From: Desulfobacterales bacterium
GTDB lineage: Bacteria > Desulfobacterota > Desulfobacteria > Desulfobacterales > QNYZ01
Length of the DNA: 18,001 nucleotides
Reading direction: 5' to 3'
Assembly: GCA_029938515.1 (NCBI GenBank)
Contig: JAOZUU010000004.1
Span: 1 to 18,001 of the forward strand
Positions 10,409 through 14,929 of this stretch are shown here, piece after piece (position 1 is the stretch's first letter; every line of letters begins with the position of its first letter). A program made the position numbers and the translations under genes. The notes beneath the pieces were generated by a model. The model saw nothing but the letters and a program-made list of their open reading frames with translations, searched no databases and was not told where the DNA came from.

Positions 10409-11560
10409 GTGACCCATATTGATGTTGACACACTCCTCGCGGAAATTTCACCTAATTCGCCCTGTGGAAAGGATATCACATACGACGTTGCTTTTCTGGA
10501 GCTTGAGCAACTCGTACATGGCACGGCGGAGATGCAAGTAGGCGACCATATTCAGGAAAGCGAAGAACCTGACTGGGAGAAAGTCCACAGCCTCAGCCTT
10601 GAGTTGCTTGAACACAGCCGGGATCTTAGGCTGATAAACTATCTGACGATCTCGGCACTTTGCGTGGACGGATTACCGGGGTTTTGCGATGGCCTTGCCT
10701 TGCTGAGAGGTATGGTGGAACGCTACTGGGACCACATATTCCCGCAATTGGACCCCGAGGATGACAATGATCCACTGGAACGGATAAACATCATCAGTTC
10801 CCTTTCCCCCCCCAATACAGTGATGAGCGATCAGGATCCCATGAAATTCAGATCCCGATTGATGGATGTACCCCTTTGCACACCGGATGATGCCCGCCTA
10901 CCGAATCCAAGCCTGCGTCACATCCTTGTGGCATCGGGAGAAATTCCGATGGCCGAGGCAGATGTGAGTAGCGTACCGACAATGCAGCTTATCGACGCTG
11001 CCTTTGAACAAACTCAAATCGAAGCACTACAAGCCAACCATCAGGTATTACATGACTGTCTGGAGCACGTCGATGCCCTGGACAAGATGCTAATTGACCA
11101 TGTTGGTGCCGCGGCATCACCGAATTTGAGTAAGCTTGAACACCTGTTGAAACAGATTCAATCGAAAATAGGGAAATATCTGGAGCACAGGGGATACGGC
11201 AAAGATGTATCGATGATCAAACATATCCAGACAAAAATGGGGACATACTTGGAACGGAAACGATCTAACCCAAACAAGTCACCGGCGGATACCGGAGGTC
11301 AAGCGGTCTCCCCAGGCAACGCGCCACATCCGGAGTTTTCCGGACAGGTCACATCGAAGCAGGAGGTGCTCAAGGCCCTGGACATGATTGTGAACTATTA
11401 CGAGCAGAATGAACCTTCCAGCCCGGTACCTTTGCTGATTAAGCGAGCCAAGCGTCTTGTGGGAAAAAGTTTCGTGGATATCATTCGCGATCTTTCCCCG
11501 GATGCCATAACCCAGGTGAAAATGGTCAGCGGGGAGCAGGAAGGATCGTCCGAAGAGTAA
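10409..11560 (+). CDS. tssA: T6SS baseplate/cap protein TssA (ImpA N-terminal family)
   Basis: TssA contacts the baseplate and the distal end of the growing tail and coordinates priming and polymerisation of tube and sheath. The 383-residue product starts with the ImpA-type domain: S14-P-N-S-P-C-G-K-D-I, then LELEQLVHG and DWEKV. The C terminus has the short-TssA pattern YYEQN-E335-P-S-S-P-VPLLIKRAKRLVGKSF with IIRDLSPDA. Between them, K248-E259 and K271-E282 are a near repeat (KQIQSKIGKYLE / KHIQTKMGTYLE), probably a duplicated helix in the linker. The start is GTG 10409 with GGAG at 10398-10401; nearby ATGs at 10396 and 10402 are in other frames. It begins the second block and is separated from tssB by a repeat element. 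Confidence 0.92.
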   Translation: MTHIDVDTLLAEISPNSPCGKDITYDVAFLELEQLVHGTAEMQVGDHIQESEEPDWEKVHSLSLELLEHSRDLRLINYLTISALCVDGLPGFCDGLALLRGMVERYWDHIFPQLDPEDDNDPLERINIISSLSPPNTVMSDQDPMKFRSRLMDVPLCTPDDARLPNPSLRHILVASGEIPMAEADVSSVPTMQLIDAAFEQTQIEALQANHQVLHDCLEHVDALDKMLIDHVGAAASPNLSKLEHLLKQIQSKIGKYLEHRGYGKDVSMIKHIQTKMGTYLERKRSNPNKSPADTGGQAVSPGNAPHPEFSGQVTSKQEVLKALDMIVNYYEQNEPSSPVPLLIKRAKRLVGKSFVDIIRDLSPDAITQVKMVSGEQEGSSEE

Positions 11561-11570
11561 TTCATGGTTC

Positions 11571-11698
11571 TATAGGCTTTCAGATAATGTTTTTGGCAAG
11601 GCTAGAGGGAAGCCCCCTTGGGTAAGTCGTACACACCGTACGTCGTCGAAGAGAGGCGACCGATAACACAGTCCAAAAACTTTATCTGAAAGACTATA
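11571..11698 (+). repeat. MITE-like 128-bp repeat with 26-bp terminal inverted repeats, copy 1
   Basis: The left arm (11571-11596, beginning TATAGGCTTTCAGATAA) and right arm (11673-11698, ending AAAGACTATA) are inverted repeats with 24 of 26 positions matching. Both ends read TATA, as expected for insertion at a TA dinucleotide. There is no room for a transposase. The interior contains a small hairpin CGTAC-acacc-GTACG (11628-11642) and a GTCG...CGAC pair. The element starts ten bases after the tssA stop. A second copy lies at 13956-14084 in the same orientation. Size, TA ends and arm length recall Correia elements and IS630/Tc1-type MITEs, but I cannot confirm a family. Confidence 0.85.
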
Positions 11699-11780
11699 CG
11701 ACCTGTGGAGAATGTTTAACCGTTTACAACGCCTCGTTGTATAGGCATTTTTTGCATATAAAAAGAGGGGAGGAAAAATT
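11699..11780 (+). promoter_or_regulatory. tssB: tssB leader with hairpin, T-run and strong ribosome site
   Basis: TACAACG-cct-CGTTGTA (11725-11741) can form a 7-bp hairpin, and a six-T run follows at 11748-11753. A competing GCCT/AGGC pairing (11731-11734 with 11743-11746) sits right before the T-run. This might act as an attenuator, but both stems are short. AGAGGGGAGG (about 11763-11773) is an unusually strong ribosome binding site, consistent with the need for many sheath subunits. Confidence 0.35.
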
Positions 11781-12314
11781 ATGGCCAAAAGAAAAGCAAG
11801 CAGTCAAAAGTTCATCGCCCGTAACAGAGCGCCGAGGGTTCAGATAGAGTATGATTTGGAGACCTACGGAGCCGAGCAGACCATCAACCTGCCGTTTGTC
11901 ATGGGGGTGATGGCTGATCTGTCGGGAAAACCTGAAGAGGCATTACCGGCGGTAGCCGACCGCAAATATCTGGAAATCGATGTGGATAATTTTGATGAAC
12001 GGATGAAATCATCGAAACCACGGGTGGCATTTCAGGTTCCCAACACCCTAACCGGGGAAGGCAATCTCAACGTTGATTTGACCTTTGAAAGCATGGATGA
12101 TTTTTCACCCGCCGCGGTGGCCAAAAAGGTTGAATCGTTGGATAAACTACTCTCCGCCCGAACCCAATTGTCCAATTTATTGACTTATATGGATGGCAAG
12201 GGGGGCGCCGAGGAACTCGTTGCCAAGCTCTTGAACGACCCGGCGCTGATGCAGTCATTATCCTCGGCACCCAATCCGGATGAGGGATCCGAAGAGACGA
12301 AAGAGGAAGGTTGA
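11781..12314 (+). CDS. tssB: T6SS contractile sheath small subunit TssB (VipA/HsiB1)
   Basis: TssB pairs with TssC to build the contractile sheath around the Hcp tube. The 177-residue product contains the family blocks SSQKFIARNRAPRVQIEYD, LPFVMGVMADLSGKPEE and DRKYLEIDVDNFD. It also has NTLTGEGNLNVDLTFESMDDFSP and LLTYMDGKGGAEEL. From memory this aligns nearly throughout with P. aeruginosa HsiB1 of the H1-T6SS. ATG 11781 follows a very strong GGGGAGG site. The acidic tail ends at TGA 12312-12314, two bases before the tssC ATG, so the pair is translated in near-stoichiometric amounts. A repeat element lies on each side of the tssBC pair. In H1-type systems TagJ binds TssB, and tagJ is present downstream. 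Confidence 0.97.
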   Translation: MAKRKASSQKFIARNRAPRVQIEYDLETYGAEQTINLPFVMGVMADLSGKPEEALPAVADRKYLEIDVDNFDERMKSSKPRVAFQVPNTLTGEGNLNVDLTFESMDDFSPAAVAKKVESLDKLLSARTQLSNLLTYMDGKGGAEELVAKLLNDPALMQSLSSAPNPDEGSEETKEEG

Positions 12315-12316
12315 TC

Positions 12317-13816
12317 ATGGCAGATAAAAAACAGGATATGGCCCCAGAGGCGGCGGAAGCCCAACCGATGGAGACGAGTGAGTTTGATTGGCTTCTAAAA
12401 AAGGAGTTTAAACCCAAGACGGATCGGGCACGCGAGGCGGTGCAGACCGCTGTCCAGACATTGGCGGCCGAAGCCTTGGAACAGACGGCGTTGATTTCCG
12501 ATGATGCGGTCAAAACGATCGAATCAATGGTAGCGGAAATCGACCAAAAACTAAGCGAACAGATAAATTTAATCATGCACCATGAAGATTTTCAGCAGAT
12601 AGAAGGCACGTGGCGCGGATTATCTCATCTGATCAACAATACGGAGACGGATGAGAATCTCAAGATCAGGGTGTTGAATCTGTCCAAGAAAGACCTCGGT
12701 AAAACCATCAAGAAGTTTAAAGGGACCGCCTGGGATCAGAGTCCGTTATTTAAAAAGATGTACGAAGACGAATACGGTACACCGGGTGGCGAACCATACG
12801 GTTGCCTTATCGGTGATTACAACTTTGATCATACACCCCAAAATGTGGAGATGCTTAAAGGGATGGCGGAGATTGCAGCCGCCGCCCATGCGCCGTTCAT
12901 TTCGGCCGCCGATCCGGAACTGATGAACATGGAAACGTGGCAGGAATTAGGGAATCCACGGGATTTAACCAAGATTTTTCAAACGGCCGAATATGCGCCT
13001 TGGCGATCCCTGAGAGACTCGGAAGACTCCAAGTATATTGGATTGACGATGCCCCGGTTTTTGTCCCGCATTCCGTACGGCGTAAAGACAGAGCCGGTGG
13101 AGGAATTTGACTTTGAAGAAGACGCCGAGGGTACAGATCATTCAAAGTATTGCTGGTCCAATGCCGCCTATGCGATGGGTGTTAATATCAACCGGGCATT
13201 TAAACTTTACGGCTGGTGTTCGCAAATTCGGGGCGCGGAAAGCGGCGGTATGGTGGAGGGGTTGCCGTGCCACACGTTTCCTACAGACGATGGTGGCGTG
13301 GACATGAAATGTCCTACGGAAATTGCCATCACGGACCGTAGGGAATCAGAACTGGCCAAAAACGGTTTAATGCCGCTTTCGCACTGGAAAAACACAGACT
13401 ATGCGGTTTTTGTCGGTGCACAGTCGCTGCATAATCCCCCGGAATTTGATGATCCCGACGCTACTGCCAATGCAAACCTGGGTGCAAGGCTACCGTATCT
13501 CTTTGCGACCTGCCGCTTTGCCCACTATTTGAAGTGTATTGTTCGCGATAAAGTCGGTTCTTTTAAAGAAAGAGCGGGTGTCGAAACCTGGTTAAACGAG
13601 TGGATCACAAACTATGTGACTACCGATCCAACCGCTTCGGATGATGTGAAGGCCAGGTATCCATTATCCGCCGCGGAAGTCGTGGTTGAGGATATCGAGG
13701 GCAACCCCGGATACTATAGCGCCAAGTTTTTCTTGAGACCGCACTATCAATTAGAGGGCCTGACCGTATCTCTGCGGCTAGTCTCCAAACTCCCTTCAGC
13801 GAAAGGGGGATCGTAA
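12317..13816 (+). CDS. tssC: T6SS contractile sheath large subunit TssC (VipB/HsiC1)
   Basis: TssC is the large sheath subunit. Contraction of the TssBC sheath drives the Hcp tube and spike out of the cell. The 499-residue protein shows near-continuous similarity to P. aeruginosa HsiC1: EFKPKTDRAREAVQTAVQTL, INLIMHHEDFQQIEGTWRGL, the cluster TDDGGVDMKCPTEIAITDRR and the C-terminal YSAKFFLRPHYQLEGLTVS. I prefer ATG 12317, giving MADKKQDM, with GAGGAAGG (12303-12310) at proper spacing. TTG 12311 would add two residues but sits too close to that site. In H1-type order hcp comes next; here a 294-base gap with a repeat element and then tagJ follow. Confidence 0.97.
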   Translation: MADKKQDMAPEAAEAQPMETSEFDWLLKKEFKPKTDRAREAVQTAVQTLAAEALEQTALISDDAVKTIESMVAEIDQKLSEQINLIMHHEDFQQIEGTWRGLSHLINNTETDENLKIRVLNLSKKDLGKTIKKFKGTAWDQSPLFKKMYEDEYGTPGGEPYGCLIGDYNFDHTPQNVEMLKGMAEIAAAAHAPFISAADPELMNMETWQELGNPRDLTKIFQTAEYAPWRSLRDSEDSKYIGLTMPRFLSRIPYGVKTEPVEEFDFEEDAEGTDHSKYCWSNAAYAMGVNINRAFKLYGWCSQIRGAESGGMVEGLPCHTFPTDDGGVDMKCPTEIAITDRRESELAKNGLMPLSHWKNTDYAVFVGAQSLHNPPEFDDPDATANANLGARLPYLFATCRFAHYLKCIVRDKVGSFKERAGVETWLNEWITNYVTTDPTASDDVKARYPLSAAEVVVEDIEGNPGYYSAKFFLRPHYQLEGLTVSLRLVSKLPSAKGGS

Positions 13817-13955
13817 TAAAGGCCGTGGGAAAAAATAAATGGACCCGATGGGACCGGATTTTAGTTCATATACAATGTGCATCCGCCGGTGCATCTTGGG
13901 ATATGTGTCGGTGGATGCAACACCGAAGATGAATTAAACGTCAGCAGTCGATTTA
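13817..13955. other. Gap after tssC at the usual hcp position
   Basis: No hcp gene or recognisable remnant is seen here. A 32-codon reading frame (13839-13937, beginning MDPMGPDFSS) has a GGGA at 13827-13830, but no family resemblance. It also contains the stem-loop described separately, so I do not call it a gene. Confidence 0.5.
13878..13919 (+). other. Stem-loop downstream of tssC
   Basis: TGCATCCGCCG (13878-13888) pairs with CGGTGGATGCA (13909-13919), leaving a single G-T position that is a wobble pair in RNA. The loop is 20 bases. No T-run follows, so this is not a standard intrinsic terminator. It may stabilise the 3' end of a processed tssBC message. Confidence 0.4.
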
Positions 13956-14084
13956 TATAGGCTTTCAGATAATGTTTTTGGCAAGGCCAGAGGGAGCCCC
14001 CCTGAGTAAGTCGTACACCCCGTACGTCGTCGAAGGCGCGCGCGACCGATAACGCAGTCCAAAAACTTTATCTGGAAGACTATA
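13956..14084 (+). repeat. MITE-like 129-bp repeat, copy 2
   Basis: This is a second copy of the element at 11571-11698, in the same orientation. The left arm (13956-13981) is identical to copy 1. The right arm (14059-14084) differs by one A-to-G change that converts a U-A pair into a U-G wobble in RNA. The interior is mostly conserved, including CGTAC-accccc-type hairpin arms (14012-14016 with 14022-14026) and ACCGATAAC. The element ends 26 bases before the tagJ start. TATA borders both ends. Confidence 0.85.
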
Positions 14085-14110: not shown

Positions 14111-14929
14111 ATGCGTGCCGAAGAACACCTTCAAGCCGGCGACCTTGAACAGGCTCTGGCCGTCCTCCAGGAGGAAGTCCGTAGCAACCCGGCTAAAGCA
14201 GATCTCCGGGTATTTCTTTTCCAACTGCTCAGCGTACTTGGACAGTGGGACCGGGCCATGACTCAGCTCAATGTCGCCGCGGACATGGATTCAGACGCTC
14301 TGTTGATGGCACAAATATATCGCCCTGCATTGAACTGTGAGGCCTTACGTTCGGATGTATTCAAAGGCAAACGGACCCCTTTAATTTTTGGTGAGCCATT
14401 GGAATCGATGGGTTGGCTCACCCAGGTACCGGGTCTTTTGGCCGATGGTAACATTGAAGCGGCCGCCGATCTGCGCGATCAGGCTTTTGAAGCGGCCCCA
14501 GTGACAGCGGGCCTGATAGACGGCCAGGCGTTTAAGTGGATTTCGGATGCTGACCCAAGGCTCGGACCGATGCTTGAAGCCATTGTCAACGGCAAGTATT
14601 ATTGGATCCCCTTCGAGCGGATTCGAGACATTCGGATCGAAAAACCTGCGAATCTCCGCGACGTCATCTGGACTACGGCCACATTCACCTGGACCAATCA
14701 AGGAGAGGCGGTTGGCCTGATCCCGAGCCGGTATCCCGGTTCGGAAAAAAATGAAGACAGTTCTATTCGGATGGGACGAAAAACCGATTGGACAGATGTC
14801 GGAAATGACTTTTATCTAGGAATCGGGCAGCGAATGCTGGCCTCGGACGAAGGAGAATATCCGTTGCTGGACATTCAACACCTGCACCTCGATCATCCAA
14901 CCGATGGAGATTCGGAAAAGGGCGAATAA
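14111..14929 (+). CDS. tagJ: T6SS accessory protein TagJ (ImpE/HsiE1 family)
   Basis: TagJ is a cytoplasmic accessory protein that binds TssB in H1-type systems and is thought to assist ClpV-dependent recycling of contracted sheaths. The 272-residue product has a TPR-like helical N terminus (AEEHLQAGDLEQALAVLQEEVRSNP... LLSVLGQWDRAMTQLN). The C-terminal ImpE region has YYWIPFERIRDIRIEKPANLRD, followed by DVIWTTA and, near the end, PLLDIQHLHL. ATG 14111 follows GGGG at 14102-14105. It lies where hcp would normally intervene after tssC, and tssE starts two bases after its stop. Its presence, with this TssB type, supports the H1-like assignment. Confidence 0.92.
   Translation: MRAEEHLQAGDLEQALAVLQEEVRSNPAKADLRVFLFQLLSVLGQWDRAMTQLNVAADMDSDALLMAQIYRPALNCEALRSDVFKGKRTPLIFGEPLESMGWLTQVPGLLADGNIEAAADLRDQAFEAAPVTAGLIDGQAFKWISDADPRLGPMLEAIVNGKYYWIPFERIRDIRIEKPANLRDVIWTTATFTWTNQGEAVGLIPSRYPGSEKNEDSSIRMGRKTDWTDVGNDFYLGIGQRMLASDEGEYPLLDIQHLHLDHPTDGDSEKGE

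Follow-up and report, generated by a model that had tools for sequence, protein, structure and literature searches.

The window analysed here, 18,001 bases of a Desulfobacterales bacterium (contig JAOZUU010000004.1), is the whole of contig C133 of a host assembly of 3.23 Mb in 560 contigs, which is 72% complete. Two hairpin repeats in it lie beside tssB and tssC, the sheath genes of a type VI secretion system (T6SS). Very probably both repeats are insertions of one non-autonomous miniature inverted-repeat transposable element (MITE) of the IS630 type, the core of which is kept for the element itself and which is located at tssBC by chance. The family represents a new group of MITEs of the IS630 type whose interior is unusual in being conserved and structured.

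The two copies in the window

11571..11698, + (by conserved-core orientation): MITE copy 1, TA + TAG...CTA + TA, 128 bp; 119.2 bits with the covariance model R1 (L001)
11571..11596, +: left arm of copy 1 (inverted repeat and arm pattern)
11597..11612, +: 5' side of the conserved core of copy 1, CAAGGCTAGAGGGAAG (alignment A2)
11628..11642, +: inner hairpin CGTAC-ACAC-CGTACG of copy 1, with a loop that varies among genomic copies
11657..11671, +: 3' side of the conserved core of copy 1, CGACCGATAACACAG (alignment A2)
11673..11698, +: right arm of copy 1 (inverted repeat)
13956..14084, +: MITE copy 2, 129 bp; 122.2 bits with R1 (L006)
13956..13981, +: left arm of copy 2 (inverted repeat and arm pattern)
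13982..13996, +: 5' side of the conserved core of copy 2, CAAGGCCAGAGGGAG
14043..14057, +: 3' side of the conserved core of copy 2, CGACCGATAACGCAG
14059..14084, +: right arm of copy 2 (inverted repeat and arm pattern)

The copies are in direct orientation with a start-to-start distance of 2,385 bases, and both ends of each are TATA. The 26-bp arms are 92% identical as inverted repeats; a separate inverted-repeat comparison gave 87% over 31 bases of copy 1. The fold energy is -47.3 kcal/mol for copy 1 (z -5.9) and -46.2 kcal/mol for copy 2 (z -4.0), and none of 200 shuffles was as low. A preliminary description of this DNA had placed two direct hairpin copies with 26-bp arms and TATA ends at these positions, all of which was confirmed. 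The high likeness it gave for the two copies also stands, the identity by BLAST (92%) being slightly above its figure of 88%. Compared with other host copies the inner stems of both are damaged, so the window copies look old.

Copies in the host and in related genomes

The element is short, lacks a transposase gene, has terminal inverted repeats and occurs in many dispersed copies, as is typical of a MITE. Other genomic copies had been proposed as a check, and a DNA search found at least 40 distinct element places in the 3.23 Mb of the host, plus 19 arm-only matches; 38 further places have contexts other than tssBC. With at most 3 mismatches, the arm pattern occurs at 88 sites in the host genome (48 forward, 40 reverse) versus 0 for the pattern read backwards, and part of these sites are further truncated or rearranged copies. 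Two size classes, of about 128 and 139 bp, are seen among the host copies; in the ~139-bp form the left half of the core holds an additional hairpin, GTCCCGC-n5-GCGGGAC. The inner GTAC hairpin has a loop (11633-11636 in the window) that takes 18 different strings in 38 host-genome copies, 4 of them unparsed; the register was not fixed in this search. Neighbouring copies less than 2.5 kb apart are present on C133, C288, C224 and C149, where simple arithmetic gives about 1 such pair for 40 random places. This amounts to mild clustering, and the tssBC pair is one of the four.

At E<=1e-3, R1 matched 151 of the 389 genomes of the order, spread over 64 of 150 genera, and by our own count about 95 of the 389 reach E<=1e-10; the E-values are rough and the copy numbers per genome are lower bounds (at most 9 or 8 candidates scored). 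Among 395 genomes drawn from the phylum, 17 had a match at E<=1e-6. Besides the host these are 7 members of the order and 9 genomes from outside it, 4 of the 9 with weak matches. The core was also found in 3 Nitrospinota/Nitrospinia contigs. No Rfam family was found at gathering score in the window; five chance-level matches at E<=10 lay on three loci, none on the element. Carriage by a phage or plasmid was rejected (no blastn match, and no pattern match in viral contigs).

One contig of a deltaproteobacterial metagenome-assembled genome holds four element copies within 4 kb (L126:228-4185). In genome G041, four loci (L037, L040, L043, L046) carry a TATAGTTTTTAAGATAAAGTTTTTGGGG end on one side, and their interior is unlike that of the element; they may be a further MITE group that depends on the same transposase. 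Repeats of the CTGGATACTGGATTCTGG type occur within or next to truncated elements (L079 near 1060-1250 and L037:777-1012).

Target site

The proposed comparison of occupied and empty sites was carried out at another site than the window's, in family f24 of the order, where 17 genomes were searched and 13 had the same RsbU-like gene. The spacer between this gene and a STAS-type gene has the element in 4 of the 13 orthologous sites and is empty in 9; one weak R1 match, in L274, lies outside the spacer. In the closest pair, G023 (occupied) and G233 (empty), the RsbU-like proteins are 94% identical. The empty site reads AATTAAGC-TA-ACCGGAGG and the occupied site AATTAAAC-TA-[TAG...CTA]-TA-ACCGGAGG, which is a clean TA duplication. 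Besides this spacer the symmetric flanks point to the same target: in 137 copies (the R1 matches minus wrong-strand, cut, weak and repeated rows) a preference W-N-C precedes TATAG, the same at both ends, as is expected for a palindromic target around TA.

The four genomes with an occupied spacer (L265, L268, L269, L275) belong to three genera and have the element at the same TA. In G149 the copy is similar to those of its own genus, which makes an independent insertion or a replacement likely there. The element provides the stop codon TAG of the RsbU-like gene.

IS630 transposons with matching ends

Matches to DDE_3 were present in 22 of 30 element-bearing genomes, and TATAG ends at one of the 30 loci examined (L185, in G269). 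Its transposase (L185/L213) matches the IS630 family NF033545 of NCBIfam with 246 bits (cut-off 100) as well as Pfam DDE_3. Homologs were found in 118 of the 389 genomes of the order, and 30 of their loci were examined. TATAG ends on both sides were seen at the four most similar of these, L213, L214, L215 and L216, whose transposases are 100, 81, 78 and 68% identical to the query; the frame of L213 is intact and encodes 371 aa. The ends at these loci have 19-23 of 24 bases equal to an element arm, the closest being L216 in G302 with 23 and 22 of 24. In 17 elements of other IS630 subgroups, 9-15 of 24 bases were equal to the arm. L230, near-identical to L229, was left out, and the other 8 of the 30 loci had no convincing paired ends; these include L217, with a TATAG-type end match (22 of 24) at one end alone.

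A full-length transposon with the same termini had been suggested as a thing to look for. It was found in other genomes of the order, with ends that are similar and not identical. The copies, the TA duplication seen elsewhere and the matching transposon ends together bear out the likeness to IS630-type MITEs pointed out earlier. We infer from these sequence comparisons that an IS630 transposase mobilises the element in trans. In the host, a transposase of a TATAG-ended IS630 transposon, absent or unassembled, would have moved it.

A conserved and structured core

MITEs are usually regarded as leftovers of transposons, with conserved ends and dispensable middles. In the present family the core, AAGG-TAGAGGGAG / CGACCGATAACGCAG, is conserved between genomes while the arms differ with compensatory changes. 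A conserved middle with varying, compensated arms is the reverse of an ordinary MITE, and the middle therefore probably does something for the element.

With a pattern covering only the interior, AAGGNTAGAGGGA-N25-55-CCGATAACGCAG, 60 stretches of genome contigs were obtained. The titles of three name Nitrospinota or Nitrospinia, those of the rest Desulfobacterales, Desulfobacteraceae, Desulfosarcina, Desulfococcaceae, Desulfaltia or Deltaproteobacteria. All except two (58 of 60) lie inside a hairpin, most with TATAG-type ends; one of the two is cut by the contig end and the other (L109) has no right arm.

Covariation was measured on an alignment of 49 selected copies. In this alignment 93.2% of the cells are paired, against 36-44% when the structure is slid. 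Covariation scores 0.345; the shuffles give 0.124 +/- 0.008, with 0 of 500 as high, and the slid controls give 0.025-0.075. Pairs changing on both sides number 18 of 30 (shuffled mean 12.1). One pair within the core, columns 51-112, is G-C in 43 and A-T in 4 of the 49 copies, and it is A-T also in six copies outside the alignment. Judged from the sequence and not from a computed fold, TAGAGGGAG and CGACCGATA as a single strand could form a U-A and an A-U pair, two G.A/A.G blocks and three G-C pairs; tandem G.A pairs are a known motif.

Likeness to Correia elements and other repeats

No description of the present family was found in the literature searched, although one of 250 mobile or repeat candidates in PMC11109978 could be it. 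The searches matched the element to no described family, in agreement with the earlier suspicion that it is undescribed.

Correia elements (CREE/NEMIS) have TATAG...CTATA ends, arms of ~26 bp and lengths of ~105 and 153-157 bp, with target duplication and >100 copies per genome (PMC2229807, PMC2649163). The present element has the same ends and arm length and falls within their range of about 105-157 bp. The arm sequence is different (TATAGTGGATTAACAAAAATCAGGAC in Correia, TATAGGCTTTCAGATAATGTTTTTGG here), and the long Correia form, unlike the present element, has a 50-bp insert with a site for integration host factor. A resemblance to Correia with different arms had been pointed out before; it is borne out and, by profile alignment of the 106-bp form, seems to extend into the interior, where both have in collinear order on the same strand ACAAGGC after the left arm, a GTAC-n-GTAC hairpin, and AACGC before the right arm.

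For this comparison the Correia arm served to retrieve Correia elements from viral contigs, and an interior was aligned globally to a profile of the present family and compared with shuffles. The likeness to Correia was already suspected, so the matching words were not chosen blind; the profile test came afterwards.

One 106-bp Correia interior scores 20.3, and its opposite strand -3.6. Among 10,000 dinucleotide shuffles (mean -3.4, sd 4.7) and another 10,000 that preserve the structure, none scores as high as 20.3. None of 42,000 sampled background windows of the Correia contigs reaches 20.3, the top one being another Correia copy (17.3). With R1 the 106-bp form has 28.3 bits against 12.4 on the opposite strand, and a search of 16 contigs with default filters found only one Correia copy, with 35.4 bits (20.4 on the opposite strand, much of the score coming from the arms).

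An intergenic repeat with TAGGC...GCCTA ends between ycbX and rlmL of E. coli K-12 (L300:7695-7811; NC_000913.3, about 1007695-1007811) scores 28.6, above Correia, and is the best of 19,974 windows in 50 kb of K-12. None of 2,800 dinucleotide shuffles and none of 10,000 structure-preserving ones scores as high, and the opposite strand scores -9.7. This repeat emerged from the ERIC background control, so its test was unplanned and the register is the best one. A 171-base query of it finds a median of 5 places per E. coli genome. On its other strand there is a match to the Rfam family sX9, a Xanthomonas small RNA, below threshold (25.8 of 44 bits).

ERIC shares with the present element the length (127 bp), TA ends and AAGGC ... 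AACGCAG, and differs in its TATAC ends; the likeness is only moderately significant. The five ERIC stretches contain just two distinct interiors. Of the two ERIC scores, 10.6 is reached by 14 of 6,000 dinucleotide and 59 of 10,000 structure-preserving shuffles, and 14.3 by 2 and 7 of them. R1 aligned one copy (L298:110-236) end to end, its 18.2 bits falling to 4.5 on the other strand, and gave a second copy 13.1 bits.

Taken as sequence likenesses, these results suggest common descent without proving it. The present family, Correia, the ycbX-rlmL repeat and possibly ERIC may belong to a single superfamily of ancient origin, made up of structured MITEs that IS630 transposases of the TATAG type move, with a core kept across phyla and arms rewritten to suit local transposases; we hold this tentatively, at somewhat less than an even chance. 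Convergence of hairpin repeats is a serious competitor to shared ancestry and is itself a little short of even. It would account for the outcome of nhmmer, which with the element interior gave Correia 1.8 and 0.6 bits, scores that 2 and 8 of 1,000 shuffles also reached, and with the whole element reported neither Correia form, yet reported 9 and 27 of 2,000 interior-shuffled controls. It would equally account for the 155-bp Correia form with its insert, whose score was reached by 68 of 2,800 shuffles, for a non-Correia window in the Neisseria background that reaches 16.2, for the moderate significance of ERIC, and for R1, which gives the E. coli repeat 8.3 bits and finds nothing in 50 kb of K-12 with default filters. 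Convergence is less easily reconciled with the structure-preserving shuffles, none of which reached the score of the 106-bp Correia form or of the E. coli repeat, and with the negative scores of both opposite strands.

According to PMC2649163, how Correia elements are mobilised is undetermined. The present family, a likely relative that is structured and for which a partner group of IS630 transposons has been identified, offers a concrete and testable hypothesis on Correia mobilisation.

Three further systems are similar by description. The MITEs of Candidatus Thiomargarita nelsonii share TATAG ends, a long hairpin and copies on >100 contigs, and their authors compare them with Correia, mention IS630 and found no parent insertion sequence (PMC4853749); the likeness to the present element is one of description. 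RUP of S. pneumoniae is likewise non-autonomous with TA ends and a proposed mobilisation by IS630-Spn1 (PMC2229807); it was compared by description alone, and differs in that here the interior is conserved across genera. The mobile motif MRSC-65-2 shares a single long covarying stem, often in dozens of copies per genome and in diverse phyla, and has a UYCCGG repeat which the present core lacks (PMC11109978).

What the core serves

Single departures from consensus arm pairs were counted in 38 host-genome copies (2 skipped): 17 were G.T, 19 A.C and 25 other, and none was compensated. Copies between co-directional genes are distributed 36 versus 37 over the two orientations, i.e. with no bias; here genes were called by a longest-open-reading-frame rule, 21 of the 137 copies were left out for short flanks, and 27 of the 116 others overlap a called open reading frame of at least 210 nt. 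Use as RNA by the host would keep G.U over A.C and might favour one orientation. Neither was seen, so the conservation is better explained among transposing copies, and a role as host RNA was rejected on these two grounds. Since the arms decay regardless of pairing and there is no orientation bias, the fold probably serves the element and not the host. In the 49-copy alignment G.T exceeds A.C, 71 versus 19 (39 versus 13 without G000 and G054), with two positions giving 41 of the 71. We lean towards a fold that is needed for amplification, where it might act as RNA, as single-stranded DNA or as a protein-binding site. A single-strand fold of the core, in RNA or DNA, would help the element persist or amplify, and host need would not have to be the reason.

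An ordinary, recently spread MITE, whose interior only seems conserved and whose core has no function, would fit the high copy number, the patchy distribution and the neutral decay of arms in the host copies. We consider it unlikely, as arms and inner stems vary between genomes in compensated pairs while the core is kept, and as in several genomes one pair inside the core is A-T in place of G-C.

Several points weigh against an IS630-type MITE with a core kept for the element. The role of the core is inferred from patterns of conservation, and movement of the element from sequence comparisons. The host assembly, 72% complete, yielded no IS630 (DDE_3) transposase. In none of the genomes examined do a transposon and MITEs have identical ends, which makes the match one to a transposon group and not to a proven driver. 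Among other TATAG 24-mers in the fetched loci, 30 of 631 also reach at least 19 of 24, in a control that is contaminated because these loci hold real elements. Some weak R1 matches may be hairpin arms alone, true elements reaching 55 bits on the wrong strand. Finally, relatedness can lift covariation counts above those of shuffles without structure, and the structure was drawn from the same alignment.

The T6SS locus

A T6SS cluster lies on the contig according to Pfam. The genes next to the two copies are:

10409..11560, +: tssA (ImpA_N, TssA), upstream neighbour (Pfam)
11781..12314, +: tssB (VipA) (Pfam)
12317..13816, +: tssC (VipB) (Pfam); ATG 12317 was taken as the start, the open reading frame list having TTG 12311
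14111..14929, +: tagJ/ImpE, downstream neighbour (Pfam)

Copy 1 has the tssA stop 10 nt upstream and tssB 82 nt downstream, and copy 2 has the tssC stop 139 nt upstream and tagJ 26 nt downstream. The elements thus sit in the spacers beside tssBC, as had been described, and 'directly outside' the pair holds only approximately, the gaps being 82 and 139 nt.

In 19 tssC loci from other genomes of the order R1 gave no match. Conservation of both copies at the same T6SS sites in relatives had been named as evidence against a mobile element, and it was absent from all 19 loci; the window insertions therefore look lineage-specific. A T6SS-specific role of the element was rejected on the basis of these element-free loci. 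The bracketing of tssBC is most likely incidental. The two copies would be chance insertions into spacers of the T6SS operon, and any influence on mRNA processing would be no more than a side effect.

The hairpin pair could instead be a functional part of the operon that sets sheath stoichiometry through RNase III processing or mRNA protection, as proposed for NEMIS/Correia in Neisseria. The two copies share one orientation, the operon spacers that hold them would be transcribed, and RNase III acts on Correia transcripts (PMC2229807, PMC2649163). We find this improbable given the absence of R1 matches at the relatives' tssC loci, the 38 genomic places elsewhere, the degenerate inner stems of both window copies and the lack of an orientation bias; no result of the analysis demonstrates that tssBC are regulated, captured or lost.

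Loss or capture of tssBC as a composite unit, by transposition from the outer ends (TATAG...CTATA) or by recombination between the 92% identical direct copies, had also been suggested and is very unlikely: the family is dispersed, the inner stems are damaged, close pairs occur also on C288, C224 and C149, the host has a single tssC match at E<=1e-80, and in 17 of the 19 relatives' loci, none with the element, a same-strand open reading frame of tssB size (not identified by family search) lies beside tssC.

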